A stretch of 64,000 nucleotides of DNA from Microcoleus sp. CAWBG506. GTDB lineage: Bacteria > Cyanobacteriota > Cyanobacteriia > Cyanobacteriales > Microcoleaceae. Below, one piece after another: positions 38,262 to 59,970 of the stretch. The notes beneath the pieces were generated by a model that was not told where the DNA came from, did not search any database, and was given only the letters and a program-made list of their open reading frames with translations. The position numbers and the translations under genes are program-made. Each line of letters starts with the position of its first letter. Positions within the stretch are counted from its first letter, which is position 1. The stretch covers positions 62,001 through 126,000 of the forward strand of contig JAHREW010000012.1 of the NCBI GenBank assembly GCA_020883125.1, given 5' to 3'.

Positions 38262-38276
38262 CGGGAGTGTGGGAGC

Positions 38277-38294
38277 CAATGGAAAATTTTCCAT
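38277..38294. repeat. Copy 1 of an 18-base sequence containing a perfect palindrome
   Basis: CAATGGAAAATTTTCCAT, of which the last 16 bases are a perfect palindrome, lies 15 bases after the coupling protein stop. The identical 18 bases occur inside the parB-like gene at 52432-52449. It is a candidate centromere-like (parS) site or an interspersed palindrome. Confidence 0.6.
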
Positions 38295-38369
38295 TCGCCT
38301 TGACCTAGAAGTTGGGATCGATTCGGATTCTTCAGCCGCGATCGCATTCTGAGCGGCTGCGACAATAGT

Positions 38370-38996
38370 CTAAATCTCTACCTCTGGAATTCCCTCAATG
38401 TCGAAATGAGTGAGGGACGCGATCGCAGGCGGTGATGTTCTTCGAGTAGCAACAGGCGAGCTCGCCTGTCCTGCCAGCGCGGACGCGAGCCAGTCTTTGG
38501 CTTGTGCGTGTTGCCGGCTGTCCCAACTGAGTTCGCGCCTCGTCCCCGGATGGGCTGGGTGCAGTGCTAACACGGTCAGCTTGATATTTTCTGGCGGCAG
38601 CGAGAGAGATTCGGCTGCTGTCCACAATTTTACTCGGTCAGACCAATTTAAGGCTGGATGGCGGATTGCCCATTCAATTAAATGGACGGATTGAGGTTCA
38701 AGAAAAGCTGCATTGGCGTTGATTTGCACGCATACATCTTTATTAAGCCTAGCGCTAAACTGAGTATCGACTAAGAATTTAGGAGGTTCCCATTCAAATA
38801 CCTCTGGAAATAGCAAGCTAACTTCCATAATCCACTTATCCATTTTTTGATTCGCAAGTAGCAGGGGTTCAGTGGGGAGTTTCAAAAAAGTTTGTTTCAT
38901 TATTAGTTGAAATTCCTCTTGTTTCAATTCAATGGGAACTGCTAGTTGTGTGGGATTGGCTAGAAAACTTAAATCAGTGAGGGTGATTAATTGCAT
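38370..38996 (-). CDS. Hypothetical protein, possibly nuclease-fold
   Basis: A 208-residue protein of unknown function. Segments such as HPALNWSDRVKLWTAAESLSL and IKLTVLALHPAHPGTRRELSW, ending in a helix (QHAQAKDWLASAL), have the feel of PD-(D/E)XK-type accessory nucleases, but I cannot place the catalytic residues, so this is only a suggestion. The C-terminal ~35 residues are Ala/Ser/Pro rich. There is no signal peptide. It converges on the coupling protein gene. The start at 38996 (MQLITLTDL) has no obvious strong ribosome binding site. Confidence 0.6.
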   Translation of the reverse strand: MQLITLTDLSFLANPTQLAVPIELKQEEFQLIMKQTFLKLPTEPLLLANQKMDKWIMEVSLLFPEVFEWEPPKFLVDTQFSARLNKDVCVQINANAAFLEPQSVHLIEWAIRHPALNWSDRVKLWTAAESLSLPPENIKLTVLALHPAHPGTRRELSWDSRQHAQAKDWLASALAGQASSPVATRRTSPPAIASLTHFDIEGIPEVEI

Positions 38997-39218
38997 AGGT
39001 GGGTAAGGCAGTTACAGCTTACCCAGAGGGCGCGGCGTTAGTCGCGTGCACGCTGTTGATTAATAATGAACATTTGGGTTATAAAAATTTTATAAATAAC
39101 AGGTTAGTGAGTATATATATCTTGCAAAATCAGAAACTGATTAAAATTTAATGATAACAAATACTTCGATTTTGTGAAAAGTAGCATCGTGGGGCAATGC
39201 TAGCACTTGCATCAAAAC

Positions 39219-39244
39219 CCTGACGGGGTTGTCACCCCGTCAGG
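39219..39244. terminator. Strong hairpin CCTGACGGGG / CCCCGTCAGG
   Basis: A perfect 10-base stem (39219-39228 with 39235-39244) and a six-base loop. No T tract follows on either strand. It could be a rho-independent-like end or an interspersed palindrome. Confidence 0.4.
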
Positions 39245-39414
39245 CAATTCACTCTCCGTTGGGTATCGTTGAGGCTACTGTGCAACAATGGGTAAATAGA
39301 AAGCGCAGCGACGGCTCCGCAAACCTGTTCCGGCTTCACTTTCCAATACCGCTGCAACTGTTCTAAGTTAAGGTGTCTGAAGATTTCTTGGGCGATCGCA
39401 GTCCCGTTAATTGA
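39235..39414 (-). pseudogene. Possible gene remnant
   Basis: A minus frame of 60 codons without an ATG start. It encodes a protein-like peptide (AIAQEIFRHLNLEQLQRYW, then KVKPEQVCGAVAALSIYPLL) and stops at 39232-39234. The hydrophobic/charged pattern suggests a broken coding sequence, but I cannot name the family. Confidence 0.25.
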
Positions 39415-39565
39415 TCATTTATGACAACTTAAGACTTAATTGTAAGCGTCCTCCTTCCCCTTTTCTCTGCACCTATATGGGTCGTCAAGATACCACTAGT
39501 GGAAATTCTTTCGATTAAGTTATGATTGAACGGCTTGGCTATAACTACCAGATGAACTTGCTCAT

Positions 39566-40324
39566 CTAAATGCCGAAATCAGTAGCTTTAGCCATTATTT
39601 CTGATAGGGTAGCTGTATCACAGTTTCTAGCACAAAAATGCAATAAAATAGATTGTGGTAAAATTGAAGTGAGCAAGTGCCTACATTTAAAGCGATCATA
39701 CAGCATAGGATAAACAATCCAATATTCAGGTATGGGTTTGCATTTGACAATTTCTCTGTAAATAATGGCATTGAAAGGAGGTTGGTCGAAGGCATAGTCC
39801 CATTTATATCTGTCAATCTCATATTTCCAAGCCTCTATAAAAACTTTTATTAACAGGCTTGGACAACAAAAAAAACCACTATTAGAACCTCGGACATTTT
39901 GATGATTAGCAATTCCTTTTTCATCTTCAGTTAAACATTCTCCCATCCACCTTCCAGTAATACTATGGAATTTAGCAGGAAGAGTTGGCAATTCAGAATA
40001 AATTAAATGATCTTGGCAATAATCAAAGATATTTTTTATAGGTTTAACGCATATGGTATCAACATCTAGATACATAATCTTTTGATATCTTGATATATCA
40101 ATCAGACTTAAGCAATCCACCTTCCAGTATTTTGAACATTGAGAATCTTGATAGTTTGCTTGATATAAAGTAACATTTAAACTAGGGTCGAAAGAAATAT
40201 CATCCGTAACTAGCAAAATATCACCTGTATATTTCCCAGCATTTCTTAAAGATTGAATGCAAAGTTTTGCTAAATTCCAATAAGGTTGCCCAAGAGCAAT
40301 CAAATATATTAATGTAGCACTCAT
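39566..40324 (-). CDS. GT8-like glycosyltransferase
   Basis: About 252 residues from the ATG at 40324, chosen because AGGAGG lies 8 bases before it; a longer in-frame reading overlaps the preceding gene. The protein begins with a beta strand (ATLIYLIALG), has the GT-A donor/metal motif YLDVDTICVKP and a later NSGFFCC segment, as in GT8-like enzymes that transfer sugars from nucleotide donors. No membrane segment. It is the last gene of the minus-strand block and lies 17 bases after the related gene at 40342-41169, so the two are likely co-expressed and may act on the same acceptor. The donor and acceptor cannot be told from sequence. Confidence 0.75.
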   Translation of the reverse strand: MSATLIYLIALGQPYWNLAKLCIQSLRNAGKYTGDILLVTDDISFDPSLNVTLYQANYQDSQCSKYWKVDCLSLIDISRYQKIMYLDVDTICVKPIKNIFDYCQDHLIYSELPTLPAKFHSITGRWMGECLTEDEKGIANHQNVRGSNSGFFCCPSLLIKVFIEAWKYEIDRYKWDYAFDQPPFNAIIYREIVKCKPIPEYWIVYPMLYDRFKCRHLLTSILPQSILLHFCARNCDTATLSEIMAKATDFGI

Positions 40325-40341
40325 AATATATCCTCCTGAGA

Positions 40342-41169
40342 TTAAAGATGTTCTAGAGGGGGAATCTGTGGCAAGCCATTTTCTCCCACAATATCTAACC
40401 ATTGATATATATAGTGTGAATGTAAAATTCGTACATTCTGCCACAAACCTTGTCTTTCCATTTCTTTCCACATTCTCCCCGTTCCATTATATAACGTATT
40501 AGGCATGACACCAATAGCTATATCCAAGCTTTTTTTGTGATGCTCATCTCTTATTATCTGATTGAGAATTGTTTGATCATTGAAACCTCCTGCCCAAGAC
40601 CATTTACCCATATAACGTCTTTCTCCAACAGAGACTTCAGCAAACTTACGCCACCACGTTTGGAAGAATTGACGAGTTACATCGGAAGCTTTAAAAGCAA
40701 TAACTCCGGAGTTATATACAGAAGGATTAGTTAGCTGAATCAACTTTTCAGGTTTACGTCTTTCTCCTAGAAATTCGGAACTAGAAAATTCTACCTTAGA
40801 GTCGTTGGTTAAAACAATATCAGAACAGCTTAAATAATCAAAGACCGGACTAATATCACCTTTTACATAAGTGTCTGCATCCAAATAAAAATTAAATTCA
40901 TATGGAAAATTCATCTGTCCTAACACATTAGCTTTAATAGCAATCATTCTATCAGTTTCTAAGAAAAAATATTCTATTTCACGTCTATTATTTAAAATAA
41001 CAACATCATCAAAATCATCAAAACTTGAAAAGGCTGAAGAAATTACTGAATCTGTAAAAAGAGTAGATGGAAACCCTGGACTATTTCGTTTTAGGCTTTT
41101 GGCAGAAATAGTAGCCTCATTCAAACTCTTTTCACCATAAGCTATGTAAATAATACCTATTTTGTTCAT
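40342..41169 (-). CDS. GT8-like glycosyltransferase
   Basis: A 275-residue GT-A type enzyme. The N-terminal Rossmann-like strand (GIIYIAYGEKSLNEAT) is followed by the metal/donor motif FYLDADTYVKGDISPVFDY and by VYNSGVIAFKAS, the usual order in GT8-like transferases. The sequence from 180 on (WAGGFNDQTILNQIIRD) fits the acceptor-side region. It shares general architecture with the downstream gene at 39566-40324, although they are not near-identical. It is cytoplasmic, and part of the block that also encodes a carbamoyltransferase and an aminotransferase, so glycosylation of a small molecule or a surface glycan is likely. Confidence 0.78.
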   Translation of the reverse strand: MNKIGIIYIAYGEKSLNEATISAKSLKRNSPGFPSTLFTDSVISSAFSSFDDFDDVVILNNRREIEYFFLETDRMIAIKANVLGQMNFPYEFNFYLDADTYVKGDISPVFDYLSCSDIVLTNDSKVEFSSSEFLGERRKPEKLIQLTNPSVYNSGVIAFKASDVTRQFFQTWWRKFAEVSVGERRYMGKWSWAGGFNDQTILNQIIRDEHHKKSLDIAIGVMPNTLYNGTGRMWKEMERQGLWQNVRILHSHYIYQWLDIVGENGLPQIPPLEHL

Positions 41170-41269
41170 ATAAATATTTTAATTGAAAAACGAGAGTTAA
41201 TAGATAGATGGATTGTGAATACTAAAGTCCCCAAGTATCTTTAGCATTACACTATTTTATGAGAATATC

Positions 41270-42829
41270 TTAACTTTTTGGCAAATAAAGCATTTTGTTT
41301 ACAACAAAAGCATCAATATTTCTAGTTAAGCAAAATTTAACTAAATCACTCATTCTATTTATAAATCCTCTTCTGTTAAAGTTTAATGAAGTATTACATA
41401 CAACCCCAAATCCTGTTAGCTTTTTGAACTCAACTAGCAGTCTATATATTTCTGGATTATCGCGCTCATTTACGCTTTGTAATCGTGCGCTATTGTCAAT
41501 ATGTGTAATAGCTTTTAGTTTGTCTGTCTTCAATCTCTGAAAATAGAGCATATAGGGACTAGATTCATTCCATTCAAAATACTCGGAAACATATTCCTCT
41601 ATACAAATGGGAGCTATTGGTCTATATCCTTCCCTCTGTTTTATTTGATTCAGCCTGTCTCTCATCTTTGCATCGAAGGGTGAGGCAAGTATTGATCTGT
41701 TTCCCAATGCTCTTGGACCAATTTCATATTTGCCATTTACCCAAGCTATTACCTTGTTTTGTTTTAAAAGTTCTGCGACTTGTTGATACTCTAGTGAAAA
41801 CATTTCAAATTTATCCAAACAAACCAGATCATCAATAAAATCCTCACCTGCGTAAACATTCCAAGATATTTTAGCTTTTCCTGTGTAATATAATTGAGCG
41901 TCTATCGCAGTACCCACAGCAGAACCTGTATCATTGGTACATGGTGGGATAAAAATATCAGAGAACAATCCAGATTCCTTCCATTTGGTATTCCACTCAC
42001 AATTCAGACCACAACCCCCGCTAATCAAAAGTGGCAGTTTCTTGTTTAGCCTAGCTTTAGCAAAAGAATAAAATTTATCGAATAAAGCATCAGAGAATTT
42101 ACCTGCTAAATTCTTAAATGCTTGGCTCTCGACACCTATATTAACGTAAGGAGACCATCTAATATCTGCTTTTTCTGTTGAAGAAGAAGTCATTTTACGA
42201 TTAAAGATAAAATTAATTAATTTCTGTTCATCTTTAGTTAATGGACTTCTATCAGAGAAACTTGCAAGTGCCATTAGTTTTCCCGCGTTCCCATCGTTAG
42301 GACGATTCGTAAGCAAAGTAGGATCAGCAATGGAGAAGAGAAAAGCATATTTATTACCAGGCCCATCTAATACTTCTCCACATTTTGTTATTTTAATATT
42401 TTTATCTATTTCATAAAAACTACCAATTTTACCTTCCCATACGAGAGCATAACAGGGTTCTCCTTGATCAAAGGGAGACATACCATAGGCACAGAGAAGA
42501 TGTGATCTTTCGTGAGTTGAGGAAAATAATTCTACCTCTTTTCCAAGAAAACTTATTTTTCTTGTTAGGATTCCAGTTTCATTAAACCCAAAATATCCTG
42601 ATTCAAGAGAGGTGTCAATCATATCGTTACAACCTTTCCACCATCCACCGATTGCTAGTACATTAGGAATCTCATTAACATAAGACATTGAATTTAATAC
42701 AAGGCTAGGGGAGATAGAAGCATATCTTAAAAACGAATCCTTTTCAGCTTCTAATGAGAATTTTAGTTTAAAATCCTCAATAAAAGCTATCGTACCATCA
42801 TGCCCGGGTTTAAATGACAATATTTCCAT
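41270..42829 (-). CDS. Carbamoyltransferase, NodU/CmcH family
   Basis: A 519-residue O-carbamoyltransferase. The N-terminal Kae1-like ATPase half opens with FKPGHDGTIAFIED and carries the SGGCGLNCEWN and NDTGSAVGTAIDAQ segments of the nucleotide site. The C-terminal half has RALGNRSILASP and VCNTSLNFNRRG, strongly conserved in NodU, CmcH and TobZ. These enzymes use carbamoyl phosphate and ATP to carbamoylate a hydroxyl, usually on a sugar or cephem. In a block with glycosyltransferases and a sugar-type aminotransferase, a sugar hydroxyl is the likely target. The length is near the family's usual 530-600. It lies 52 bases after the radical SAM gene on the same strand. Confidence 0.9.
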   Translation of the reverse strand: MEILSFKPGHDGTIAFIEDFKLKFSLEAEKDSFLRYASISPSLVLNSMSYVNEIPNVLAIGGWWKGCNDMIDTSLESGYFGFNETGILTRKISFLGKEVELFSSTHERSHLLCAYGMSPFDQGEPCYALVWEGKIGSFYEIDKNIKITKCGEVLDGPGNKYAFLFSIADPTLLTNRPNDGNAGKLMALASFSDRSPLTKDEQKLINFIFNRKMTSSSTEKADIRWSPYVNIGVESQAFKNLAGKFSDALFDKFYSFAKARLNKKLPLLISGGCGLNCEWNTKWKESGLFSDIFIPPCTNDTGSAVGTAIDAQLYYTGKAKISWNVYAGEDFIDDLVCLDKFEMFSLEYQQVAELLKQNKVIAWVNGKYEIGPRALGNRSILASPFDAKMRDRLNQIKQREGYRPIAPICIEEYVSEYFEWNESSPYMLYFQRLKTDKLKAITHIDNSARLQSVNERDNPEIYRLLVEFKKLTGFGVVCNTSLNFNRRGFINRMSDLVKFCLTRNIDAFVVNKMLYLPKS

Positions 42830-42881
42830 ACCTTAATTACTCTACTATTATTGCTTAACTCGCTCTTGAACCGTAAGTTGG

Positions 42882-43811
42882 TTAAACTTTTGTAAAATGT
42901 TGTGATGTATACTTTTCGCAAAAGTAGGGACAATATGATGAATTACACAGCGCGGAATTACTAAGAAAACTGACATTCTTCTGTAGTATATTGCCAAGGG
43001 ACTCTTTAGAACCACACCTAAAGACGCTTCCATCAGGCTTCAGTTTTATAAAGTTATAACCCGAACCACATAACCTCCCATGATAATTTAGATTACTGTT
43101 TAAAAAACGCTCATCATTAAACATATCAATTGTTGGTGGTTCACCCATTCTAGTAATTATCGAAATATATTTCAGCCTTGCTTCCCTCAAATATTGAACA
43201 ATTAGGGTTTTTTCGTTTTCAGAGTAAGCTTCAGGGTATCTCATTCCCTGATAATTATCTCGCAATGTTTTAGGGATTAGTGATATACCAAAAGACTCAA
43301 AGTATTGCGAAATCTCTGAATAAATCTTTATTATTGCAGGAGTCATTACTAACGATACTAAGACATTAAATTGTTGAGATTGAAGTCTTTGAACACGATT
43401 TATAAAAACATTTAATAATGCTTTCTTTTGTCTCTCAAAATAATGTACAGCAGCATTAATATAGTGTACTCGTGCCGGATCAATCTTCTCTGCAAATTCA
43501 TTAACACACTGATGCGAAAGGTTAGAGTTAAGCGAAACAAAATGATCTTGGGTTAGTTGTTCACACATCTCAACAAATCCTGGATAAATCGTTGGTTCTC
43601 CTCCTGTGATATGAAGTAGCCATATCTTGCTAGTCGCATTAAAACTCTCTGCCCATTGTTCTGGTGTAGCATAGATATTCAACATGGCACCTAAAGCATC
43701 TGGACGAGAAAAACAGTAGGCACATCGAAAGTTGCAAGTTTTTAGTAATGTCCAATTGGCTTCAATATCGTATTTCATCTCTATCATAAGTTTTAATTCT
43801 GAAAGGAACAT
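42882..43811 (-). CDS. Radical SAM enzyme (third in the block)
   Basis: A 309-residue radical S-adenosylmethionine enzyme. The cluster motif is CNFRCAYC (C26, C30, C33 from the 43811 start) and HITGGEP follows near residue 70 for AdoMet binding. The C-terminal third has extra cysteines (RLCGSGYNF, VFRCGSKE, LCNSSYCPYFC) that suggest a SPASM-type auxiliary iron-sulfur site. Such enzymes catalyse radical oxidations, epimerisations or crosslinks on sugars and peptides. Starts at 43787 (MIEMKYD) and 43778 (MKYDIE) are also possible. It begins two bases after the flavodoxin gene, its likely electron donor. The substrate is unknown. Confidence 0.85.
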   Translation of the reverse strand: MFLSELKLMIEMKYDIEANWTLLKTCNFRCAYCFSRPDALGAMLNIYATPEQWAESFNATSKIWLLHITGGEPTIYPGFVEMCEQLTQDHFVSLNSNLSHQCVNEFAEKIDPARVHYINAAVHYFERQKKALLNVFINRVQRLQSQQFNVLVSLVMTPAIIKIYSEISQYFESFGISLIPKTLRDNYQGMRYPEAYSENEKTLIVQYLREARLKYISIITRMGEPPTIDMFNDERFLNSNLNYHGRLCGSGYNFIKLKPDGSVFRCGSKESLGNILQKNVSFLSNSALCNSSYCPYFCEKYTSQHFTKV

Positions 43812-43813
43812 TA

Positions 43814-44344
43814 CTAATTGTAAAACTTTAGAGTCAAGTTAGATATTCTTTTGCCAAATTCAAAAGCTCTTTCAGCATCTTCAGTTGAAAATAGAGATCC
43901 ATGCTTCTCTATTCTTTGAGTCTTTACACCTAGACCATTGAAAAAATCGGTATTTATTTTAGTTTTTGCATTGCCGACTATAATCATGCCATGCATCAAC
44001 ATAAAATGATTCAACATATTGAGAGCTAGAACCTTATCACCACAAATACCTCCCGAAACAGTGAAACTGGCTCCTATTTTATTCGATAGAGATTGATTTT
44101 CCCAGAAACTAAGGGTTGACTCCATATATGCTTTCATTTTTGAACTGATGTTTGCAAAATAAGTAGGACATCCAATAATGATACTGTGGCAATCAGGTAA
44201 AATATCTATACTCACCTGATCTATTGAACCAATAATAGCATCAATATCTTGATAAAATAAAACTCCTCGCTGAATTTCTTGGGCAAGAGCAGCAACATGA
44301 TTATTCTCTGAATGGTAAACAATCGCAATTCGTAAATTTGACAT
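43814..44344 (-). CDS. Flavodoxin / FMN reductase-like protein
   Basis: About 176 residues from the ATG at 44344, preferred because earlier in-frame codons overlap the methyltransferase gene. It begins with the flavodoxin-type phosphate loop (IAIVYHSENNHVAALAQEI), then GCPTYFANISSKMKAYMEST, which matches the WrbA/NADPH-dependent FMN-binding group. It is cytoplasmic. It is packed four bases after the methyltransferase and two bases before a radical SAM gene, so reduction of radical SAM clusters is its probable task; that is inference from position and from the known use of flavodoxin by these enzymes. Confidence 0.8.
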   Translation of the reverse strand: MSNLRIAIVYHSENNHVAALAQEIQRGVLFYQDIDAIIGSIDQVSIDILPDCHSIIIGCPTYFANISSKMKAYMESTLSFWENQSLSNKIGASFTVSGGICGDKVLALNMLNHFMLMHGMIIVGNAKTKINTDFFNGLGVKTQRIEKHGSLFSTEDAERAFEFGKRISNLTLKFYN

Positions 44345-44348
44345 ATAC

Positions 44349-45107
44349 TTATCGAGAGGCACAAACCAATAATCGTTGTCTGTCTTTGCTAACTGCGTTA
44401 CCTCTTTCATCAGAACTACATTTAACATTAGAAAACCCTATAGCACGAAGTAAATCAGTTATTTCTTTGGGAACGAATGTGCGTTGAACATAATAAAAGT
44501 CTTTTTCGCCAGTATGAATTGAAACGTACTTTCGCTTAGTTCTTAGAAGAGAGCTTGCATAATCAAGTTCTGCTGATTCTAGTATTGCAGTTCCATCGTC
44601 ATACAGCCAACGATCGATTACAGGATGCCCTAAGAAGAAATCACGATTCACTAAATCAAGGAATATTCCTCCATTAGGCTCTAGCTTTTGATATAAAATC
44701 CTCAAGTCGTTAACTATATCTCGATCTTCTCCATATCCAAATGCTCCGAAATGTGAGTAAGCAAATTTACAAGAAAAATCAATTTCGGTAAAATCACCGA
44801 TGATTATTTCAATAGATGACTTATAATATTCTAAACTTTTTTTGGCTTCATATATAGACTGCCGATCGATATCTATTCCGATTAAATTATTAAAATCTCG
44901 CTTTGCAAACTCTAGTAAGTGTCTACCAATACCACATCCTAAATCGCATACTCTATCATGTTTTTCTATCTGAAGTAACTTGATGATGTATTCAACTTGA
45001 TTAGATGAGCGTTCTCGCAGAGAAACTGTATTTTTTCTATTTAAGCGTAAGATACCATCATCAGGATCATTACTTCCATAATATGACAAAATATTGCTCG
45101 TTTCCAT
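44349..45107 (-). CDS. Class I SAM-dependent methyltransferase
   Basis: A 252-residue methyltransferase. Motif I is RVCDLGCGIGRHLLEFA near residues 52-68, followed by the acidic strand-2 end IGIDID and a strand-4 region (HFGAFGYGEDRDI). The C-terminal part has an extended beta region (FYYVQRTFVPKEITDLLRAIGF) typical of small-molecule O-, N- or C-methyltransferases. It has no membrane segment or DNA-recognition domain, so DNA methylation is unlikely. It starts two bases after the oxygenase gene (45110-45919). In context it probably methylates the pathway intermediate. Confidence 0.85.
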   Translation of the reverse strand: METSNILSYYGSNDPDDGILRLNRKNTVSLRERSSNQVEYIIKLLQIEKHDRVCDLGCGIGRHLLEFAKRDFNNLIGIDIDRQSIYEAKKSLEYYKSSIEIIIGDFTEIDFSCKFAYSHFGAFGYGEDRDIVNDLRILYQKLEPNGGIFLDLVNRDFFLGHPVIDRWLYDDGTAILESAELDYASSLLRTKRKYVSIHTGEKDFYYVQRTFVPKEITDLLRAIGFSNVKCSSDERGNAVSKDRQRLLVCASR

Positions 45108-45109
45108 AA

Positions 45110-45919
45110 CTATTTTCCTAGTTTACAAATTTTCCTTGTTTTCTGCGGTCGTTTCCGATCTAATGCGTAATCTGACTTAACTATCAATGGAATAAAGCTC
45201 CATCGACCATCAGATGCGTTCAAGTTAAGACATGAGTCTGGCTCTATATATTGTACACCATGTGGTAGACGAGGACTAAATATTATAATATCGCCAATAC
45301 CTGTTTGTCCATCTAAGTAAGTCTCATTATCTTGTTTAGGATGTCTAGCATAAAAACCACCAGACTGATAATCTTCTCCATATTCTGAAGCTACCACAGC
45401 TATTTGCACTTTAGAAAAAACTGTTAAAGGATCGGTATGTTCTTCTAGGTATCCTCCTCCTCTGGGATACTGAAAGACAACAATACGGGAGATTATATCT
45501 TGAAAAGAGTTGGTTTGAGATTGGTTCTCCCCTACGTTTGTAGACAAAATATTCTTAATCTCAAACAATTCTTTAAAAGCGGAAAATAAATACCAATTCT
45601 TGTTCCAATTATGAAAGTAGTAGGCTTTGATTAATTTATCAATATTTGCGGTTGGATTACTTGTATGAATTCTCCAATAGTCAGGACATCCATCAACGCA
45701 GGAGTATATACCTTGCGCCATTGTTTGAGACAGATTTAAAATTTCATATCTCAGAGACAAAATAAGTTCTTTAGAATAGAAATTTTTAATTATGTAAAGT
45801 TCATAATTTTCAATTGAATCAATAAGATAAGTGAGATTCCTCTCCAGATACAAAATAAAACTATTTTTATCAATAATTTTTATCCCTAAATTTTCAATAT
45901 TTTTTTCTATCAAGACCAT
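45110..45919 (-). CDS. Fe(II)/2-oxoglutarate-type oxygenase
   Basis: A 269-residue protein with the iron triad of cupin-fold oxygenases: H161-x-D163 in LEEHTDPLT and H220 in RLPHGVQY, followed by an Arg near residue 239 that would bind 2-oxoglutarate. The core also has VFQYPRGGGYLEEH and GIGDIIIFSP as in phytanoyl-CoA/prolyl hydroxylase-like enzymes. The ATG has a GGAGGT nine bases upstream. About 85 bases around this ribosome site and start are present as a diverged second copy at 47331-47415, on the far side of the aminotransferase gene. A hydroxylation or desaturation of the pathway intermediate is likely. Confidence 0.82.
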   Translation of the reverse strand: MVLIEKNIENLGIKIIDKNSFILYLERNLTYLIDSIENYELYIIKNFYSKELILSLRYEILNLSQTMAQGIYSCVDGCPDYWRIHTSNPTANIDKLIKAYYFHNWNKNWYLFSAFKELFEIKNILSTNVGENQSQTNSFQDIISRIVVFQYPRGGGYLEEHTDPLTVFSKVQIAVVASEYGEDYQSGGFYARHPKQDNETYLDGQTGIGDIIIFSPRLPHGVQYIEPDSCLNLNASDGRWSFIPLIVKSDYALDRKRPQKTRKICKLGK

Positions 45920-45954
45920 AATTTACCTCCGGCTGATGTGATTTGAGATACCTC
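45871..45954. repeat. Flanking direct repeat, copy A (functional gene start)
   Basis: This holds the ribosome binding site and first codons of the oxygenase gene. It aligns with 47331-47415 over about 85 bases at roughly three quarters identity by eye, including an exact run CTTACCTCCGGCTGAT-type core (one difference). The two copies bracket the aminotransferase gene. Confidence 0.75.
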
Positions 45955-45977
45955 AAAACATTATACACTATTTTGAC

Positions 45978-47201
45978 TTACTTTCTAGCTAAAGTCTCAA
46001 TAGCAGAAGCAATGTAATCGATATGTTCATCGGTATAGGCTTCATTACAAGGTAATACCAGCACCTTGTCTAAGCCTTCAAAAGTTCCTGGAAACTTCTC
46101 ATAGCTATAATTTAAGGCGTCTGGTTTAGCCAAAGTAAAAGGAAAGCGAGAATTACCAAAAGTCCGTTGCTTTTCAAATATTTCACGTTGAAAAGCCGGT
46201 TTTTGAATATAACGAGGGGATGAGAAAATTCCTTTTTCTTCTTTCAATTGCTTGGCTAGTCCTACAGCACCGCCTCTAATCAGATCACTATCAACCCGCA
46301 GACAGTATTTCCAGTAGACATGAGTATTCCGAGGGTCAATATAGGGGGTTTCAATCCCAGCAATGCCTTGTAATTTATGGGTTAGTTTGGCAGCAGCACT
46401 CTGCCGAAGTTTAACGATATCTGGTAGCTTAGACAGTTGCCCACAAGCGACTGCCCCTTGTAGTTCACTCATCCGATAATTTAGGGCTAAGAAGTAATGA
46501 TCAGGGTTAGGATCTTCATAGCCTAAAGCTTTGTTAATGTAAAGAAAAAGCCGTCGTGCCAAGGCTTCATTATTGGTGATAAGCAGTCCCCCTTCGCCGG
46601 TTGTAATATGTTTGCCCTGCTGTAAGCTAAAACAGCCTATCTCTCCCCATGTACCCACATATTGTCCATGATGTTGAGCCAGAAAACTTTGGGCACTATC
46701 TTCAATCACGGGCAGATTATAGGCTTTTGCCAGTTTGCAAATTTCTGTCATATTACAGGGATTACCAAACAAATGAGTAACAATAATGCCCTTAGTGCGT
46801 TCATTTAAACAGGGTTTGATCGTTTCGGCGGTGACATTCCAAGTTTTTGGATCAACATCGGCAAAGCGAGGGATAGCTCCTTGATAGAGGATAGGGGTTA
46901 AAGCCCCCATATCTGTGATGGCAGTAGTGACAATTTCGTCACCAGGCTCCGGATCGATAGCAGCGATCGCCGTATGAATAGCCGCTGTTCCTGAAGAACA
47001 AGCATAGGCATATTTAACTCCGAGGAGTTGGGCAAAGTCTTTTTCAAGTTGCTTGACCCAAGTGCCTTTTGTACTGGTGAGAGTGCCACTGACAATAGCG
47101 GATATTACTCGGTCAATTTCTTCCTGACCTAGCGTTCGTCCGGTTGCGTCTTGATCGGAGGGGAGTTTAATGATCAATTTATTGGATATATAGGAGTCCA
47201 T
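45978..47201 (-). CDS. DegT/DnrJ/EryC1-type PLP aminotransferase
   Basis: A 407-residue sugar-type aminotransferase. PLP-site features: ACSSGTAAIHTAI for phosphate binding, D168 in VIEDSAQS for the pyridine nitrogen, and the Schiff-base lysine K197 in SLQQGKHITTGEGG. The family installs amino groups on keto-sugars and cyclitols. DNA here is less AT-rich than its neighbours and carries a HIP1 site near 46964, the only one I found in the 39.5-51.4 kb block. The gene is flanked by ~85-base diverged direct repeats (45871-45954, 47331-47415), so it appears to have been inserted between the genes on either side. No strong ribosome site precedes ATG 47201. Confidence 0.9.
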   Translation of the reverse strand: MDSYISNKLIIKLPSDQDATGRTLGQEEIDRVISAIVSGTLTSTKGTWVKQLEKDFAQLLGVKYAYACSSGTAAIHTAIAAIDPEPGDEIVTTAITDMGALTPILYQGAIPRFADVDPKTWNVTAETIKPCLNERTKGIIVTHLFGNPCNMTEICKLAKAYNLPVIEDSAQSFLAQHHGQYVGTWGEIGCFSLQQGKHITTGEGGLLITNNEALARRLFLYINKALGYEDPNPDHYFLALNYRMSELQGAVACGQLSKLPDIVKLRQSAAAKLTHKLQGIAGIETPYIDPRNTHVYWKYCLRVDSDLIRGGAVGLAKQLKEEKGIFSSPRYIQKPAFQREIFEKQRTFGNSRFPFTLAKPDALNYSYEKFPGTFEGLDKVLVLPCNEAYTDEHIDYIASAIETLARK

Positions 47202-47330
47202 TTAATTTTAAACCTGTGATGAGACTAAAGATTAGCTTTTAATTATAGATTAATTTCGATCTATATCAAAAATATCTTCAAAACACAATAAATTGTAAAA
47301 AACGGGATTGTTTTAGCTAAAGCCAGAGTT

Positions 47331-47415
47331 ATCAGGATCTTTATTCCTAAATTCTCATCTTTTTAACTATAAAGACCATAACTTACCTCCGGCTGATCTG
47401 ATCTGATAATCCTCA
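47331..47415. repeat. Flanking direct repeat, copy B (decayed gene start)
   Basis: Matches 45871-45954. Here the GGAGGTAAGTTATGGTCTT segment is no longer a working start: the reading frame of the gene at 47367-48335 runs into it and ends within it, so the last residues of that protein (AGGKLWSL) are read from the duplicated ribosome site and start region. Confidence 0.75.
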
Positions 47416-48335
47416 ATATATTTTTCATTTCTTATTAACGATATCAAATAATAAATTAATCTTTGAGGGTTTTGTGTTTTATGAAACCACTCTATTCCCG
47501 CCTTTCTTATTTTAAAGGAAGTATCTACATTCTCTAGCACAAACGTAGATACTTTTAAGAGTTCAGTCATATTGCTAAAGTAAAGAATCTCATGATAATT
47601 GATTGGTGGTTTTTCTAGAACAAACATAGATCTTTGCTGACATAAGCATAAACCACCACTTAAAAATATCTCTGAAAAACGATATGTACTATTCTGATTT
47701 CCCGGAAAATCTAAACATGCTAGAGAAAATCTAAGTAGAGATGAATAATCTTTTGGATTAAGCCCGCAAGTAACTGTTATACGTTCACCAAGAACTGATT
47801 TTAATGCTTCAAGATAGACAAGCCTCTCCCCCCATACAGCCCCAGCGAAACAAATCATATTTGAGTCTTGAAAAGTATTATCATATCGTCTATATGGTTG
47901 ATTTAAAATATTTAATTGTTCAATGAGTCTATCTGATGGGAAAAATGGTAACGGAAAACATTTGATCTTTGAATTTATCAATGAGATAAAAAAGTCTGAG
48001 AATTGCTCTTGCCCTATCATCGGTGAAAGATAGATTACACTAGCAGAAGTTTTTGATTGAATCATCTGAACAGCATCAATTCCCATAGGACCTTTTAAGT
48101 CAACCATAAAAATTGAGTTATTGATATTTAAACTCTCATTACGAATTAAATTAATTGCTTTGCCGTAAGGAGGTATAAAAATAATATCATCGGTTTCAAC
48201 ACTATGTAAATATGCAGAAACTTCACTACTAGCGTCATAGAAATCAATATCTGCTTCTTGACACCCTAATTTTAAATATACCTTAAAGCAGCGGTACTGC
48301 TCTATGCGAATATCAATTAAGTCTATAAAACGCAT
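47367..48335 (-). CDS. Glycosyltransferase-like protein (GT-B type, tentative)
   Basis: A 322-residue cytoplasmic protein. The C-terminal half has the look of a GT-B glycosyltransferase donor domain: a strand at MICFAGAVWGERLVYLEAL, then YSSLLRFSLACLDFPGNQNSTYRFSEIFLSGGL, where the acidic and Gly residues of the R/F-x-x-E-x-x-x-x-G pattern (FSEIFLSGG) sit as in GT1/GT4 proteins, and a closing helical FKIRKAGIEWFH. The N-terminal half is an alpha/beta domain without known motifs. Assignment is by pattern only. The C-terminal eight residues lie in a duplicated sequence. It starts 16 bases after the beta-propeller gene. Confidence 0.6.
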   Translation of the reverse strand: MRFIDLIDIRIEQYRCFKVYLKLGCQEADIDFYDASSEVSAYLHSVETDDIIFIPPYGKAINLIRNESLNINNSIFMVDLKGPMGIDAVQMIQSKTSASVIYLSPMIGQEQFSDFFISLINSKIKCFPLPFFPSDRLIEQLNILNQPYRRYDNTFQDSNMICFAGAVWGERLVYLEALKSVLGERITVTCGLNPKDYSSLLRFSLACLDFPGNQNSTYRFSEIFLSGGLCLCQQRSMFVLEKPPINYHEILYFSNMTELLKVSTFVLENVDTSFKIRKAGIEWFHKTQNPQRLIYYLISLIRNEKYIEDYQIRSAGGKLWSL

Positions 48336-48351
48336 TTCTTTTCTTACTTCC

Positions 48352-49233
48352 TTACTGTATCGCTACTTCAATATCAAATGGTGCTTGTTCATCCATTTTG
48401 AAGAGCCATATAAGCTCTTTACTTAATTTATCAATCTTAGCAATATATCCTGAAGAATCAAAATTATTAGTTCTGTCTTTTTCAGCAGTAAATATTATTT
48501 GATTACCTAAAGGTTTAGCAGAGCGAGTCCAAGAAGAATATGGAGCTAAGTATTCCCATGTTTGAACTCCTGATTCTTTGGCAAAAACTTTAATCATTGA
48601 TTCTTGTGAGCTACAAACATATATTTCATTGCCTATGGGATAAGAAGAATGAGTTTGTATTCCTGTTTTACTATATTTTTGTGCTACTTCATTCTTTATT
48701 GGATCAACTAAGATGATATCACCTGTATGAAATAGACAGCAAAATAGAACCAGTCTATTTTGGAATAATCCTGGATAAGCACAGTTAATATGAGTCCAAT
48801 CGTCACTTGCTGATACACGGACAAATGCTCGTCTGTCTTTATATTCTAGTTTCTTCGGTTTCCCGATATAACTAGCTGAATCAAATAAGCGCTCAATAAT
48901 TAAAGATTGTTTCCTCTCATCCAATCTACAAAAGATTAGTTCATCATATCCAGTATTAGCAATTACGAAATAATCTTTTTCAATTAAATCTACAGAATGA
49001 ACATTAGATAATCTTTCAAGAGAAAAGCTTGCTATTATCCGAGATAAATTGGGTTCGACAAAATGAACACCATAAGTTGTAGAAATTAAATATTTGTCTT
49101 CCAAGGCACGAACAGAGTGGAGAATATCAAACTTATTTATCCCCTCAATCATTAATGTTTTTTCTATACTTTGTGTGTCTTCATTAAAGAGAATTAACTC
49201 ATTTGTTCTAAGACAAGAAATAATAAATCTCAT
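48352..49233 (-). CDS. Beta-propeller-like protein of unknown function
   Basis: About 293 residues from the ATG at 49233, preferred over a TTG at 49245 because GGGAGAG sits just before it. The sequence is a succession of short beta strands with repeating blade-like units (YLISTTYGVHFVEP, YFVIANTGYDELIFCRLD, DIILVDPIKNEV, GNEIYVCSSQESMIKVF, GYIAKIDKLSKELIW), resembling six- or seven-bladed propellers of the PQQ/WD-like or sulfotransferase kind. No signal peptide is seen, so it is probably cytoplasmic. It lies in the midst of the radical SAM operon and may be a substrate-binding or lyase/isomerase-type component; the activity is unknown. Confidence 0.65.
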   Translation of the reverse strand: MRFIISCLRTNELILFNEDTQSIEKTLMIEGINKFDILHSVRALEDKYLISTTYGVHFVEPNLSRIIASFSLERLSNVHSVDLIEKDYFVIANTGYDELIFCRLDERKQSLIIERLFDSASYIGKPKKLEYKDRRAFVRVSASDDWTHINCAYPGLFQNRLVLFCCLFHTGDIILVDPIKNEVAQKYSKTGIQTHSSYPIGNEIYVCSSQESMIKVFAKESGVQTWEYLAPYSSWTRSAKPLGNQIIFTAEKDRTNNFDSSGYIAKIDKLSKELIWLFKMDEQAPFDIEVAIQ

Positions 49234-49275
49234 ACTCTCTCCCAATATAGTAAAATAGCAAAATACAGGTGCAAA

Positions 49276-50133
49276 TCAATCTATTTTTGCCCTGTGTTGC
49301 CAGGCATGAAAGCTACATCCTGAACATAATGGTGAAAGCACCCATTGTCCTTTTGCATGAAACGAACGATACTGTAACATTATATTGGATATCCACAGGT
49401 CTATAAAAGAGCTAACTTTAAGGTCTCCAATAATATATTTTTTGTGAGATTCATACTCAGGATATATGTTGAGACACATCTTCAATAAACCTTGATAACT
49501 GATGGCAGCCATTTTTTGTGTAGCATAACAAGGGACTGTTCTATGTTGTCTATAAATATCTGAAATAGTTCCTCCACGATAGTTAAACTCCTTAGTAGTT
49601 CGATTGATGACTTCTATAGTAAGTCCCCCTTGTACCGAAATAGCAGCAAATCCCTGCCAAGTTTCAACTATTGTCCACTGAAAAGATTTGTTTATTCCTT
49701 TTTGAATTAGCCAATTTAAAATTATTTCAATAGACTTATCTTTTGCACAAGATTCATCATAAGCTTTATTTGGATATAAACTGACCTTTATTAGGTTAAG
49801 ACCTACTTCTCTAAGATTATTAATGGTTTGACCATTCAAATAATCACCATTCGTAAAAATTTTTTGAAAGCTGTTTGGTAGAAATTCTCTAAGAGCTTTT
49901 AGCTCTTCCAAAATTCTAGGATTGGCTAACGGCTCGTTGTAATTGTGAAGTGCCACCTTGCCTTCATATTGAAGAGTCTTTAACTCCGCTAAAATCTTAA
50001 TAAATAGATGCCAAGGCATTAATTCTTGATTTATGCGTGATTTTGTTGTACTGTTAGGACACCAATCGCATAACCGATTGCAATATCTCGATGTTTCTAT
50101 TTCAATCGACTCTGGTAACAGAATTAAGCTCAT
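49276..50133 (-). CDS. Radical SAM/SPASM-like enzyme (second in the block)
   Basis: A 285-residue radical SAM protein. The cluster motif is CNRLCDWC (C18, C22, C25), with LHNYNEPLANPRI in the position of the AdoMet-binding GGEP loop. Later cysteines (VPCYATQKM, LLKMCLNIYPE, LSPLCSGCSFH) suggest an auxiliary cluster of SPASM or twitch type. The size is close to dehydrogenases of the BtrN kind acting on aminocyclitols, but a peptide or other sugar substrate is equally possible. The start overlaps the stop of the upstream radical SAM gene by ATGA-type coupling (50130-50133), so the two enzymes are probably made in equal amounts. Confidence 0.85.
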   Translation of the reverse strand: MSLILLPESIEIETSRYCNRLCDWCPNSTTKSRINQELMPWHLFIKILAELKTLQYEGKVALHNYNEPLANPRILEELKALREFLPNSFQKIFTNGDYLNGQTINNLREVGLNLIKVSLYPNKAYDESCAKDKSIEIILNWLIQKGINKSFQWTIVETWQGFAAISVQGGLTIEVINRTTKEFNYRGGTISDIYRQHRTVPCYATQKMAAISYQGLLKMCLNIYPEYESHKKYIIGDLKVSSFIDLWISNIMLQYRSFHAKGQWVLSPLCSGCSFHAWQHRAKID

Positions 50134-51401
50134 AAAGTAGTCTCTTTTACTAAACTTTCACCTTGATCGCTATGATTTTGCTTACACCCGGAAATCTTTT
50201 GAATGCTTTGATCCATATCTGAATTTAAAAAGAATGTGGAAATGGAAGAGTAACGTTCATCACTAAAATCTTCATTAACTTTACCTATCCACGTACATAA
50301 ATAGTTATCATGAACGCGGATTCCTTCTTCACAGCCAATCTTGGGATCTTTAGGTAGGTTAGGTTCTTTACCATGTTCATTTACATACTCTTGCGGGCAG
50401 TAAGGATCTTTAGATTCTAGATTTCCGTAGACCAAAAAAGACCTAGCACTACACCCACCTCGACAAACTTCTAGATACTTACATCCTGATTCTTGACATG
50501 CAGAAGGAATGTATTTACGCCTATTTGCAAATGCTTGAAATTCCTGGCTTTCAACAATGTCAAAAATATCATCCTTCAGTAGGTCTCCTGTTTTAAAGTC
50601 ATGCATATAAACGCATGGGTTTATGGGAACTCGACCATCGGCTGTCTTAGCATTAATTCTGAAAGATGATGTGCCACAAGGACAACCTTTAGACCCAGCT
50701 TCTGTGAATGCTGTTAAACATGATTCACCTAGAGTAATGCAATGTGTGCTGTTCATTAAAATTGAGAATCCTTCGTAAAACTGATCTCGGTTTGGCATTT
50801 CATCGAGCAACACTTTTTCAACGGGCTTCAATGTATTTACTCTGAACTCGCTACCTAAATGCTTAGTTAAAGCTAGATATGCAGAAAGGTGTTCCTCATT
50901 AAAATTCGCACGCATTCCACATGCAATTACACTACAGTCTATCCCAATCTCCACAGAACGTTGTATAGCTTTAATAGTGCTTTTATAAAGTTTAACCCCT
51001 CTGTTGAGATCGTGTTCTTTCTCAAAGGGTGAATCAAGAGAAAAATCAATATCATTAATCATACGCAGTTCATTTGGATAGTGCTGATCCAAATATATAA
51101 AAGATATTCCATTCGTTGTTAAACCAACAGGAATATCTGCGTCATTAAGGGTTCTAATGATGTAAGGTAATATCGTCTCTTCTATATTAATTCCATGTGT
51201 ATATATTGGTTCATTCCCCCCAAGATTAACAGTCTTAATACCTAATCGCTTCAATTGCTCTACAATACAATCAACGTCCTCTTTGGTGAGAAACTCTCTA
51301 CTATCCTTACGGACTTTCCAACTGTAGCAATGCCCACAAGAGGCATTGCAATGATTTCCAACTGTCCAACCAATATTTTCAAACTGATGGCTTTTAATCA
51401 T
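50130..51401 (-). CDS. Radical SAM/SPASM enzyme (first in the block)
   Basis: A 423-residue radical SAM protein with CNASCGHCYSW (C18, C22, C25) for the catalytic cluster, LGGNEPIY in the GGEP position, and a C-terminal cysteine set (CQESGCKYLEVCRGGC, then PYCPQ) that matches a SPASM domain holding auxiliary clusters. An unusual ~75-residue tail with further Cys (GCEEGIRVHD, YLCTWIG) follows. SPASM enzymes mature ribosomal peptides or oxidise sugars/cyclitols. I found no short precursor-peptide gene in the 200 bases upstream. This is the first gene of the minus-strand block, with a possible promoter at 51449-51478. Confidence 0.87.
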   Translation of the reverse strand: MIKSHQFENIGWTVGNHCNASCGHCYSWKVRKDSREFLTKEDVDCIVEQLKRLGIKTVNLGGNEPIYTHGINIEETILPYIIRTLNDADIPVGLTTNGISFIYLDQHYPNELRMINDIDFSLDSPFEKEHDLNRGVKLYKSTIKAIQRSVEIGIDCSVIACGMRANFNEEHLSAYLALTKHLGSEFRVNTLKPVEKVLLDEMPNRDQFYEGFSILMNSTHCITLGESCLTAFTEAGSKGCPCGTSSFRINAKTADGRVPINPCVYMHDFKTGDLLKDDIFDIVESQEFQAFANRRKYIPSACQESGCKYLEVCRGGCSARSFLVYGNLESKDPYCPQEYVNEHGKEPNLPKDPKIGCEEGIRVHDNYLCTWIGKVNEDFSDERYSSISTFFLNSDMDQSIQKISGCKQNHSDQGESLVKETTL

Positions 51402-51448
51402 TTTTTGACTTGCAATAAGCTCAACAAAGTTTATTCCCCACGTATGTT

Positions 51449-51478
51449 ATCATAGATCATGTATTTTTTAATAGTCCA
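51449..51478 (-). promoter_or_regulatory. Possible promoter of the radical SAM block
   Basis: On the minus strand a TATGAT (51454-51449) lies 18 bases after a weak TGGACT (51478-51473), 48 bases before the start of the first gene. The -10 is good and the -35 poor, so this is tentative. Confidence 0.4.
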
Positions 51479-51609
51479 CACCTCAAGCTTGGCAGCCCTA
51501 CTGGCGCTCTAGCTGAGATTTAGATAATCACGCGCAGGCAAAATAATACAACCGCCCCCTAACTTCTAACAGTTAGCGAAGCGGTTAGTGCCAGTAAACG
51601 AGAGCCTCA

Positions 51610-52908
51610 TTATAAAGCCTGTTCGATCGCCCGCCGCGCCAATTCCACCTGTTCCACAGCATCCAGATAAGCTAGCGCTGCTGCATCCCAAACCACTTTT
51701 CTCTGCATCCTGTTCAAGACGATTTTCCCAAACTCGTACACCGTGCCGAAGCTTTGCAGCCTGAGAATTCGCTCAGCTATTGAGCAAAAACTCGGCGTTG
51801 GGTTCAATATCGCCACTACATCTGAGTGAAGGAGCGACACCACCTCTGGGCCCATATCGACTTTCAAAGTCCCTCCAACCTCCACAATCCGGCCCCAAAA
51901 TCCATTCCACTTCCTTTGGGCTATTTTTTCAGTAGGAATAAAAGGGATTTTGACAATAACCCACGAAGGAGCGCTGTCTGGACTAAAGCGCGTTTTGACT
52001 CCCTCGCCGGTAATTGGTTCGCAAGGAGTGCAAGTTTTACATTCTCCACCGCAATCGCCTTCTTGAACCCCCTCGCTACTAATGCTGCCCTCGGTTTTCT
52101 TCGAGGCGGAAGATTTTCTCAAAGCAGCCTTAATCAGAGCTTTAGCTTGTTTGGGGGTTTTCGCGGCTCCCGACGAGAGCGCCGCCAACGCCACTACTCG
52201 CTTGTCCTCCTGCATCGAAGCAAGTTGATACCCTACATCTATGCTGTGGTCATTAATAATGTCCAACCACTTTGCAGCCAATTCGGGGCGGTCTCTCTTG
52301 AGCTCGTCGGCAGCTTTGACGGCAATGCGCCCTTTCCTGTAGTTCCTGCCGCATCCCAAGCCGACTATAGCCGCCACAATATTTTCCGTTAGTTCCATTT
52401 CCCTTGGAGTCAGGCCCAAATCGATCGGGTTCAATGGAAAATTTTCCATCAGCGGTTGCTGGTTGTCCGACGGCGGCTTTGCTGAGCCAGCAGCTTCGTG
52501 GCGAGCTTTCTTGGCAGAATGTCTGTTCCTCAGCTCTCTAGCTATAGGCTCCACAACAATTCCTTCCCGAATTCTCTGTACTGGACTTTGGTGGCGGTGG
52601 CGGTTTTCTGCCACCAAGACGAAGAGCTCGTCATCTTCAGTCTGGAAGTGGCAGACAATAACTGGGACAGACTTCCAGCCCAGCGCTGCCAGCGCCCTCC
52701 ACCGCCGATGGCCGCTGACGATCGTGCCATCTGTTTTGACGGTCAGGGGTTGGACGTAGCGTTTGAGTTGGATCAACTCTACCAGGTCAGCAATACTTTC
52801 GGTGCTTCCGTAAATTTCCTCATTGCGAGGGTGAGGCTTGAGTTGGTCAAGACCAATATGCTGAATCGCGTCGCTGACTGAGAGCGACACAGTTTCATTT
52901 TTATTCAT
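51610..52908 (-). CDS. parB: ParB-like partition/nuclease-domain protein
   Basis: A 432-residue ParB-family protein. The N-terminal ParB/Srx domain has LDQLKPHPRNEEIYG, then GTIVSGHRRWRALAALGWKSVPVIV (box II, nucleotide site) and VAENRHRHQSPVQRIREG, which leads into the helix-turn-helix DNA-binding region. A middle segment (SKPPSDNQQPLMENFPLNP) interrupts the usual domain order, and the C-terminal ~150 residues (with a Cys-rich CGGECKTCTPC) are not the normal dimerisation domain. No parA is adjacent; the next gene is a radical SAM enzyme. The gene contains copy 2 of an 18-base palindrome (52432-52449), which could be its own binding site. A plasmid-partition or plasmid-regulatory role is likely; a nuclease-like CTPase role is possible. 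Confidence 0.85.
   Translation of the reverse strand: MNKNETVSLSVSDAIQHIGLDQLKPHPRNEEIYGSTESIADLVELIQLKRYVQPLTVKTDGTIVSGHRRWRALAALGWKSVPVIVCHFQTEDDELFVLVAENRHRHQSPVQRIREGIVVEPIARELRNRHSAKKARHEAAGSAKPPSDNQQPLMENFPLNPIDLGLTPREMELTENIVAAIVGLGCGRNYRKGRIAVKAADELKRDRPELAAKWLDIINDHSIDVGYQLASMQEDKRVVALAALSSGAAKTPKQAKALIKAALRKSSASKKTEGSISSEGVQEGDCGGECKTCTPCEPITGEGVKTRFSPDSAPSWVIVKIPFIPTEKIAQRKWNGFWGRIVEVGGTLKVDMGPEVVSLLHSDVVAILNPTPSFCSIAERILRLQSFGTVYEFGKIVLNRMQRKVVWDAAALAYLDAVEQVELARRAIEQAL
52432..52449. repeat. Copy 2 of the 18-base palindrome-containing sequence
   Basis: Identical to 38277-38294. Here it is within the parB-like gene and encodes Met-Glu-Asn-Phe-Pro on the minus strand. Genes for ParB often lie close to parS, so this is a candidate binding site; an interspersed repeat that has entered a coding region is the alternative. 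Confidence 0.55.
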
Positions 52909-53374
52909 TTGGATAGCCCTGGTTGTTTATTTGGGGATTGGGGCTTTGTACCTTTGCCTGCTAAAACCAATAAGGTTTCCTAACAGAAAGCTGGGGTTAT
53001 TTTTCTGTCGGGGCTGCGCGGGCTGTATCGGCAGGTCGCCTTCACTGTCAAAAGGTTCGCTGCTTTTACATTCTTAGAATAGCATATTTCTTAAACTAGC
53101 AATGCGCTACATTATGGTATAAGAAAAGACTATTATGTTTAAAATCTTTTTTAATAATTATTGATTATTATGATAGCGCTTATGATAAAAATTGTACCAA
53201 TAATTAAAATAAATTCTACTCGATTAAATAACCGCCATGAAAGTAACAAAGCTGTTTATTAAACCTCAACACGTAGTGCCTCTCAAAGAATGCAATTCGC
53301 TTACCCTCCGGCGCGGTTGGGGGAGCGATTTGGAGTAACTTTAGTTTAATTAAGAAGTTTTATAAAATTTTTGA

Positions 53375-53597
53375 CTAAAAAAGATAAACTTTCCCCCGTT
53401 TTATTTCAAAATTAGTTAAACGAGGGAATTGACATCCTCTTTTAACCATGTTTCTGAAAGCCAAATTTTCAACCACAATCGTTGGGTTTTCGCGGACCAG
53501 TTGAGTTGTGAGCTTGTGCAGAAAATCTTTTCTAGAGTCAGCAAGAGATGCTTGAATTACAGCATTTACTTCAGCAGTTCTTACATTATACCGTATT
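53375..53597 (-). pseudogene. tnpB: tnpB relic of an IS200/IS605-type element
   Basis: A minus-strand open stretch encodes ADSRKDFLHKLTTQLVREN then TIVVENLAFRNMVKRG, which is the central part of TnpB including the RuvC-II Glu (VVEN). It runs into unrelated residues and stops at 53375. The N-terminal half, RuvC-I, zinc ribbon and RuvC-III are missing. The sequence differs from the intact TnpB at 26914-28131, so it comes from another element. Confidence 0.75.
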
Positions 53598-59914: not shown

Positions 59915-59970
59915 TGTATTAACTAATATATGGCGAACCTAAATGATTTGTGCAAATATCTAGCGGTGGT

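Follow-up and report, generated by a model that had tools for sequence, protein, structure and literature searches.

What could be made by a block of twelve genes, three of them encoding radical S-adenosylmethionine (SAM) proteins, that sits on a plasmid-like contig of the cyanobacterium Microcoleus sp. CAWBG506? The block occupies exactly positions 39566 to 51401 of the window, the 64,000-nt stretch analysed here (assembly GCA_020883125.1, contig JAHREW010000012.1, positions 62,001 to 126,000), which belongs to a 154-kb contig within a 6.03-Mb genome. The best explanation, held as a whole with moderate confidence, is that this island makes an amino-sugar- or aminocyclitol-containing glycoside and is a horizontally acquired, plasmid-borne operon. 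The new result is that its second gene, RS2, is predicted to encode a protein like BtrN, the radical dehydrogenase of butirosin biosynthesis.

The island is composed of twelve open frames on the minus strand that run from 51401 down to 39566, where an earlier sequence-only reading had counted thirteen. In transcription order the gaps between them are -4, 30, 16, 165, 58, 2, 4, 2, 52, 100 and 17 nt after correction of two start codons (flavodoxin to 44344; the last glycosyltransferase, GT8a, to 40324), so the repeated ATGA-type overlaps described earlier reduce to a single pair between RS1 and RS2, the other ten gaps measuring 2–165 nt. Eleven of the twelve genes have a GC content of 31.7–37.0%, the DegT aminotransferase gene being the outlier at 43.1%, and the nine flanking backbone genes that were measured range from 42.5 to 53.0%. 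The block is therefore a composition island, foreign to its surroundings to a degree beyond chance. A hairpin following the last gene is the strongest of nine in the stretch (6.7 expected by chance), and promoter-like sites, of which 50 were counted against 50.9 expected, are no more frequent than by chance. The single strand, the mostly short gaps and the terminal hairpin make the one pathway proposed by the sequence-only reading plausible. The DegT gene looks like a later insertion.

Homology to pOSC7112.01 of Oscillatoria nigro-viridis PCC 7112 stops just outside both edges of the island, the blastn matches ending at 39103 and restarting at 51585. The left flank is 93.9% identical to this plasmid over 51% of 25 kb and the right flank 95.5% identical over 92% of 12.6 kb. 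The likeness lies in the flanking backbone; the difference is that the same two edges are approximately 80 kb apart on pOSC7112.01 (73.5 to 153.5 kb) and enclose other cargo, namely giant Ig-domain genes, polymorphic-toxin, ParA and integrase genes and numerous hypothetical ones. The closest relative of the contig's plasmid is typed as conjugative, and we interpret the island as cargo that occupies a variable slot of the plasmid-like contig. A search of the left edge (39080–39580) matched only a 50-base piece in two cyanobacterial plasmids, and therefore no transposon was identified there. At the right edge, the segment 51585–51975, which consists of the 3' end of a ParB-like gene and the 25 nt beyond it, is also found on pOSC7112.02. 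Its left edge there is the same and equally sharp, which suggests that the breakpoint is a recurrent one.

Among solved structures, RS2 is closest to the two of BtrN (4m7t and 4m7s, E 1.2e-19 and 1.3e-19 with RS2 alone), and a five-member family profile reaches BtrN at E 4.8e-45, the next protein following at 1.8e-7. RS2 contains a total of eight Cys residues: C18, C22 and C25 within a CX3CX2C motif, C129, and C202, C220, C270 and C273. The last four align with the auxiliary-cluster cysteines of BtrN, and the arginine of the RGG motif is aligned as well. The auxiliary cluster of BtrN is bound by four cysteines (PMC9012708). RS2 thus has both the CX3CX2C motif and the four cysteines for an auxiliary cluster that mark a BtrN-like twitch protein, and is classed as BtrN-like with all seven cluster cysteines kept. 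The presence of a BtrN-like protein together with a DegT aminotransferase suggests an "oxidise alcohol, then aminate" logic. Relatives of RS2 occur in six plasmid records, two of which were read (Sodalis and Edwardsiella); the Sodalis gene (24% identity) lies one gene from a 2-deoxy-scyllo-inosose (DOI) synthase. Among viruses, the RS2 profile finds 26 loci, five of which contain DegT (a raw count with no background rate), and in 19 viral contigs the match covers most of the length of the RS2-like gene. A 714-aa fusion of a family-2 glycosyltransferase and a BtrN-like radical SAM/SPASM protein is encoded in a small genome from the same phylum (L050:8982-11126).

The DegT protein matches perosamine-synthase-type and DOI aminotransferases (2c7t, 5w71, 5w70) among 54 sequences, scoring higher against the perosamine type than against the DOI enzymes. 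It carries the family domain (274 bits) and K197, the candidate pyridoxal phosphate lysine by its motif. Eleven plasmid relatives exhibit 39–45% identity; those in the unannotated records of Paraburkholderia and Nonomuraea have no other island gene in common. The gene is flanked by two copies of a 71-nt stretch that are 80% identical, both of which encode SAGGKLWS, the C-terminus of the upstream glycosyltransferase-like protein GTx, in one frame and the start of the downstream oxygenase-like protein DIOX in another. We infer that the overlapping GTx–DIOX junction was duplicated. Since DegT lies between the two copies, the operon has been remodelled; its placement fits either an insertion accompanied by duplication or the replacement of one tandem copy.

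All twelve proteins are listed in the table in transcription order. The flavodoxin (FMN-reductase-like), methyltransferase, DegT aminotransferase and carbamoyltransferase named by the sequence-only reading are all borne out by Pfam. Pfam also recognises all three radical SAM proteins, with SPASM matches in two of them rather than in three, and two GT8/PF03407-type glycosyltransferases, the third, GTx, falling under the cut-off for PF13524.

Table. Features of the island and its edges, with window positions and supporting evidence
Feature	Position	Strand	Evidence
RS1, radical SAM/SPASM, 423 aa, first gene	50130..51401	-	Pfam Radical_SAM 55.8 bits, SPASM 22.0 bits
RS2, predicted BtrN-like twitch radical SAM, 285 aa, ATGA overlap with RS1	49276..50133	-	BtrN best solved relative
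PROP, 297 aa, nearly all-beta by low-confidence prediction	48352..49245	-	No Pfam or NCBIfam match
GTx, glycosyltransferase-like, 322 aa	47367..48335	-	PF13524 19.9 bits, under cut-off 25
Left copy of duplicated GTx-end/DIOX-start junction, 71 nt	47357..47427	-	SAGGKLWSL-stop in one frame, MVFI in another
DegT/DnrJ/EryC1/StrS aminotransferase, 407 aa	45978..47201	-	Pfam 274 bits
Right copy of duplicated junction, 71 nt	45897..45967	-	SAGGKLWS-stop in one frame, MVLI in another; holds DIOX start, GGAGG before it
DIOX, Fe(II)/2-oxoglutarate oxygenase-like, 269 aa	45110..45919	-	H161xD163...H220...R239
SAM-dependent methyltransferase, 252 aa	44349..45107	-	Methyltransf_25 43.1 bits
WrbA/FMN-reductase-like flavodoxin, 176 aa after start correction	43814..44344	-	FMN_red 39.5 bits; NCBIfam WrbA-type 61.7 bits, under cut-off
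RS3, radical SAM with C-terminal cysteines, 309 aa	42882..43811	-	Radical_SAM 38.7 bits
O-carbamoyltransferase, NodU/TobZ type, 519 aa	41270..42829	-	Carbam_trans_C 192 bits, Carbam_trans_N 77.5 bits, H106xxxH110
GT8b, nucleotide-diphospho-sugar transferase (PF03407), 275 aa, DAD motif	40342..41169	-	34.1 bits, cut-off 22
GT8a, glycosyltransferase family 8-like, 252 aa after start correction, DVD motif	39566..40324	-	PF01501 28.9 bits, cut-off 24.3; start behind AGGAGG
Terminator-like hairpin, 3' of last gene, coding strand	39219..39244	-	11 pairs, 8 G-C
Stretch without homology to the compared pOSC7112.01 regions	39104..51584		blastn edges 39103 and 51585

The RS1 gene product shares 40–46% identity and the C-terminal motif VHxxYLCTWIG with proteins encoded on plasmids of Streptomyces clavuligerus, Phaeobacter and Enterococcus. 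In these three clusters, read out of 20 records, the neighbours include a B12 radical SAM gene and a pyrophosphatase-like gene, each in two of the three, and a phosphotransferase gene and an AMP-ligase/carrier protein gene, each in one. The likeness ends with RS1 and its cysteine motif, whereas no other island gene has a match in the three clusters. RS3 is generic. The PROP protein exhibits a single marginal plasmid match, 22% identity to an annotated aryl-sulfate sulfotransferase at E 0.01, and its AlphaFold model is nearly all-beta with a mean pLDDT (confidence score) of 43, too poor for a fold search, which leaves the beta-propeller proposed earlier unproven. DIOX likewise has no Pfam match but carries the HxD...H...R residues of an Fe(II)/2-oxoglutarate oxygenase, which are invariant in five aligned sequences. 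A DIOX relative on a Pseudoroseomonas plasmid is surrounded by genes for DegT, methyltransferase, amidohydrolase and ATP-grasp proteins.

The carbamoyltransferase has the N- and C-terminal domains and the HxxxH motif of the TobZ/GdmN/NodU type, and its solved relatives include TobZ, GdmN and decarbamoylnovobiocin carbamoyltransferase. Known members of this type act on varied acceptors. Relatives occur in 309 plasmid records, of which four of the best were read: Planktothrix (57%), beside an amidinotransferase/sulfotransferase/dioxygenase set; Salmonella (54%, annotated in two pieces), beside a thymidylate-synthase/amidohydrolase/MFS block; Mesorhizobium (53%), with a polyketide synthase nearby in the region; and Streptomyces tendae (53%), beside a non-ribosomal peptide synthetase/vioD cluster. 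Except for Mesorhizobium, these are judged to sit among specialised-metabolism genes. The Salmonella plasmid pSA20083530.2 (L016:13456-18993) carries, between insertion-sequence genes, the two-piece carbamoyltransferase, a thymidylate synthase, an inosine/xanthosine triphosphatase, an amidohydrolase and an MFS transporter, and this locus looks like a small nucleoside-type cluster.

A viral origin of the island was considered and rejected. Besides the RS2 loci, viral searches returned three carbamoyltransferase relatives at 36–38% identity and none for RS3, the RS1 profile, GT8b or the DIOX profile. Against PHROGs, the ten proteins other than RS1 and RS2 gave strong matches for the carbamoyltransferase and DegT and weak ones for RS3, the flavodoxin and the methyltransferase. 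PADLOC, run with the ten other than DegT and GT8b, gave low-score matches to viperin for RS1 and RS3 and, for the methyltransferase, to part of mad2; a defence-system reading was rejected. Gene pairs and sets of the island do recur elsewhere (RS2 with DegT, DIOX with DegT, DIOX with the carbamoyltransferase and DegT, and weakly RS2 with RS3).

In the proposed pathway, judged from the residues and relatives of RS2, DegT and the carbamoyltransferase, RS2 would turn a secondary hydroxyl on a sugar or cyclitol into a ketone, with its auxiliary cluster accepting the second electron, and DegT would transaminate the ketone formed. The glycosyltransferases would link the units, the methyltransferase and the 2-oxoglutarate oxygenase could methylate and hydroxylate them, and the carbamoyltransferase would cap a hydroxyl. 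RS1 and RS3 may add two further radical steps, and the flavodoxin-like protein may supply electrons. The operon suggests a shared product; the order of steps, the substrate and the electron supply are likewise proposals. Because no DOI synthase was found, the scaffold would have to come from primary metabolism or from RS1. A bolder version, which we consider rather unlikely, is a new class of carbamoylated amino-sugar natural product without a cyclitol synthase, in which RS1 and then the BtrN-like dehydrogenase would convert a common sugar or sugar phosphate directly into the aminated ring.

The sequence-only reading had likened the gene set to aminoglycoside or carbamoylated amino-sugar chemistry and had recognised no scaffold enzyme in it. 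The latter statement holds, as Pfam recognises no scaffold synthase in the block and a PF01761 search of the whole genome found no DOI synthase, an absence that is not certain in a genome 95.68% complete. That search returned two proteins, both on contig C3, one of which we take to be AroB-like and the other a mycosporine-type enzyme, since it lies beside an O-methyltransferase as in mycosporine loci. A classical 2-deoxystreptamine aminoglycoside cluster was rejected for want of a DOI synthase and of any resistance or export gene recognised among the twelve genes. The island falls outside that kind, though part of it may work like one. As in the BtrN and BtrS steps to 2-deoxystreptamine in butirosin, a BtrN-like twitch radical SAM protein and a DegT protein stand in one block; the differences are that no DOI synthase was found here, that RS2 is distant and that DegT resembles a late insert scoring higher with the perosamine type. 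The chemistry suggested earlier is a fair reading, strengthened by the BtrN-likeness of RS2 and by the DegT matches to DOI aminotransferases, while a glycan-decoration reading stays open.

That alternative, a tentative one that is clearly less probable yet has to be taken seriously, holds that the block decorates a cell-surface polysaccharide or glycolipid as a plasmid O-antigen or capsule-type modification island, perhaps altering phage receptors. It stays open because the relatives of RS2 and the oxygenase are largely found in glycan or phage sugar loci. GT8 or GT2 domains lie within two genes of genomic RS2 relatives, or are fused to them, in three of the four loci read, and viral RS2-like genes stand among sugar-modification genes in all four loci read by eye. 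One of these (L075) is confirmed by Pfam, with DegT, a GFO/IDH oxidoreductase, a GDP-mannose dehydratase and, directly before the RS2-like gene, a glycosyltransferase of PF13524, the family that GTx weakly matches. Distant DIOX relatives adjoin GT2-type and sugar genes in three loci (by eye; Pfam-checked only in L040, where a carbamoyltransferase is also adjacent), and the block itself has two GT8/PF03407 proteins. These glycan settings of RS2, DIOX and a GTx-type gene weigh against the proposed glycoside pathway, as do the absence of a recognised scaffold synthase and of resistance or export genes noted above and several further points. The island's design was seen in no other locus read. The nearest plasmid relative of RS2 (Edwardsiella, 30%) adjoins acyltransferase and sialidase genes, not amino-sugar genes. 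In a tree of 20 rows RS2 joins the Sodalis protein with 82/81 support, both being long branches whose join may be false according to a program warning, and no inference is drawn from it. The DegT relatives of Rhizobium and Azospirillum, in the two annotated records read, adjoin altronate dehydratase, dihydrodipicolinate-synthase-type and aldehyde dehydrogenase genes; this setting looks catabolic and weighs against a sugar role. Finally, DegT is probably a later cassette, younger than the neighbouring genes, so that its partnership with RS2 may be recent or secondary. For all that, the loci with RS2-like proteins, while they share DegT and GT8 or PF13524 glycosyltransferases with the island, differ from it in having no RS1 or PROP relative where read and, in L075, in having nucleoside diphosphate (NDP)-sugar genes. 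The RS3-like match in viral locus L085 is weak, covering 91 aa at 30% identity. Among the twelve genes (the genome elsewhere was not surveyed) none was recognised as coding for a flippase, polymerase, ABC exporter, initiating transferase or NDP-sugar synthesis, and the RS1 and carbamoyltransferase relatives read sit in metabolite-like clusters. The context of the relatives thus points both ways, towards small molecules with RS1 and the carbamoyltransferase and towards glycans with DIOX and RS2. The same core chemistry would serve either product, and we lean towards a released small glycoside.

It is improbable that the twelve genes are instead a mosaic, gathered at a plasmid hot spot from unrelated cargo and yielding no common product. 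The deviating GC content of DegT, its position between the junction copies, an 11-of-12 promoter match just before it (though promoter counts are at chance) and the unrelated cargo in the same slot of pOSC7112.01 would fit such a mosaic. Against it, the genes share one strand, eleven of them have a common composition, most gaps are short, one start overlaps and all frames are open. Least probable is a ribosomal peptide matured by the SPASM-type enzymes and later glycosylated and carbamoylated. In its favour RS1 resembles MftC and other maturases, at scores far under their cut-offs (89.5 against 265 bits); against it, RS2 is BtrN-like, no convincing precursor was seen by eye among 193 open reading frames of at least 20 aa in 38261–54000, and no peptidase or peptide transporter was recognised in the block.

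The rarity of the island was gauged in genomes drawn evenly from the phylum, the samples overlapping between queries. There were no hits in other genomes for RS1 (E ≤ 1e-30, 0 of 385), RS3 (E 1e-15, 0 of 372), PROP (E 1e-4, 0 of 253) or DegT (E 1e-90, 0 of 262). DIOX (E 1e-6) was found in 3 of 253 at 28–29% identity, RS2 (E 1e-10) in 4 of 193, all within one other family, and GT8b (E 1e-8) in 2 of 193. The whole island DNA was absent from 60 other genomes of the same family, one of which has a 68% match inside the carbamoyltransferase gene and two a 46-base match, and 72,556 plasmid records contain no near-identical DNA. A contig scan with exact RS1 peptide patterns, which are insensitive as they come from a single sequence, found one distant relative. 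Among the titles and opening abstracts listed by searches of open-access literature, none was judged to describe this cluster.

Elsewhere in the window, two very large plus-strand frames (5971–13710 and 15357–24704) encode 2579 and 3115 aa, and at 53849–63853 the contig's own DNA polymerase III delta, gamma/tau and beta subunit genes adjoin homologues of a DUF1998 protein and DrmA. Upstream of the window is a second minus-strand cassette (L028:3991-9948; contig C4:45991-51948) with DegT, thymidylate-kinase-like and radical SAM genes and a weak phosphoribosyltransferase match, which adjoins an Eco57I-type methylase and a XamI endonuclease.

The island places operon remodelling on record: a gene junction present in two copies encloses an aminotransferase gene whose composition differs. 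If the proposed pathway is true, it would carry the BtrN-type "oxidise, then aminate" logic into cyanobacteria, where no 2-deoxystreptamine pathway is involved, and the twelve genes would form a compact and probably transferable unit with which to look for a new carbamoylated amino-sugar.

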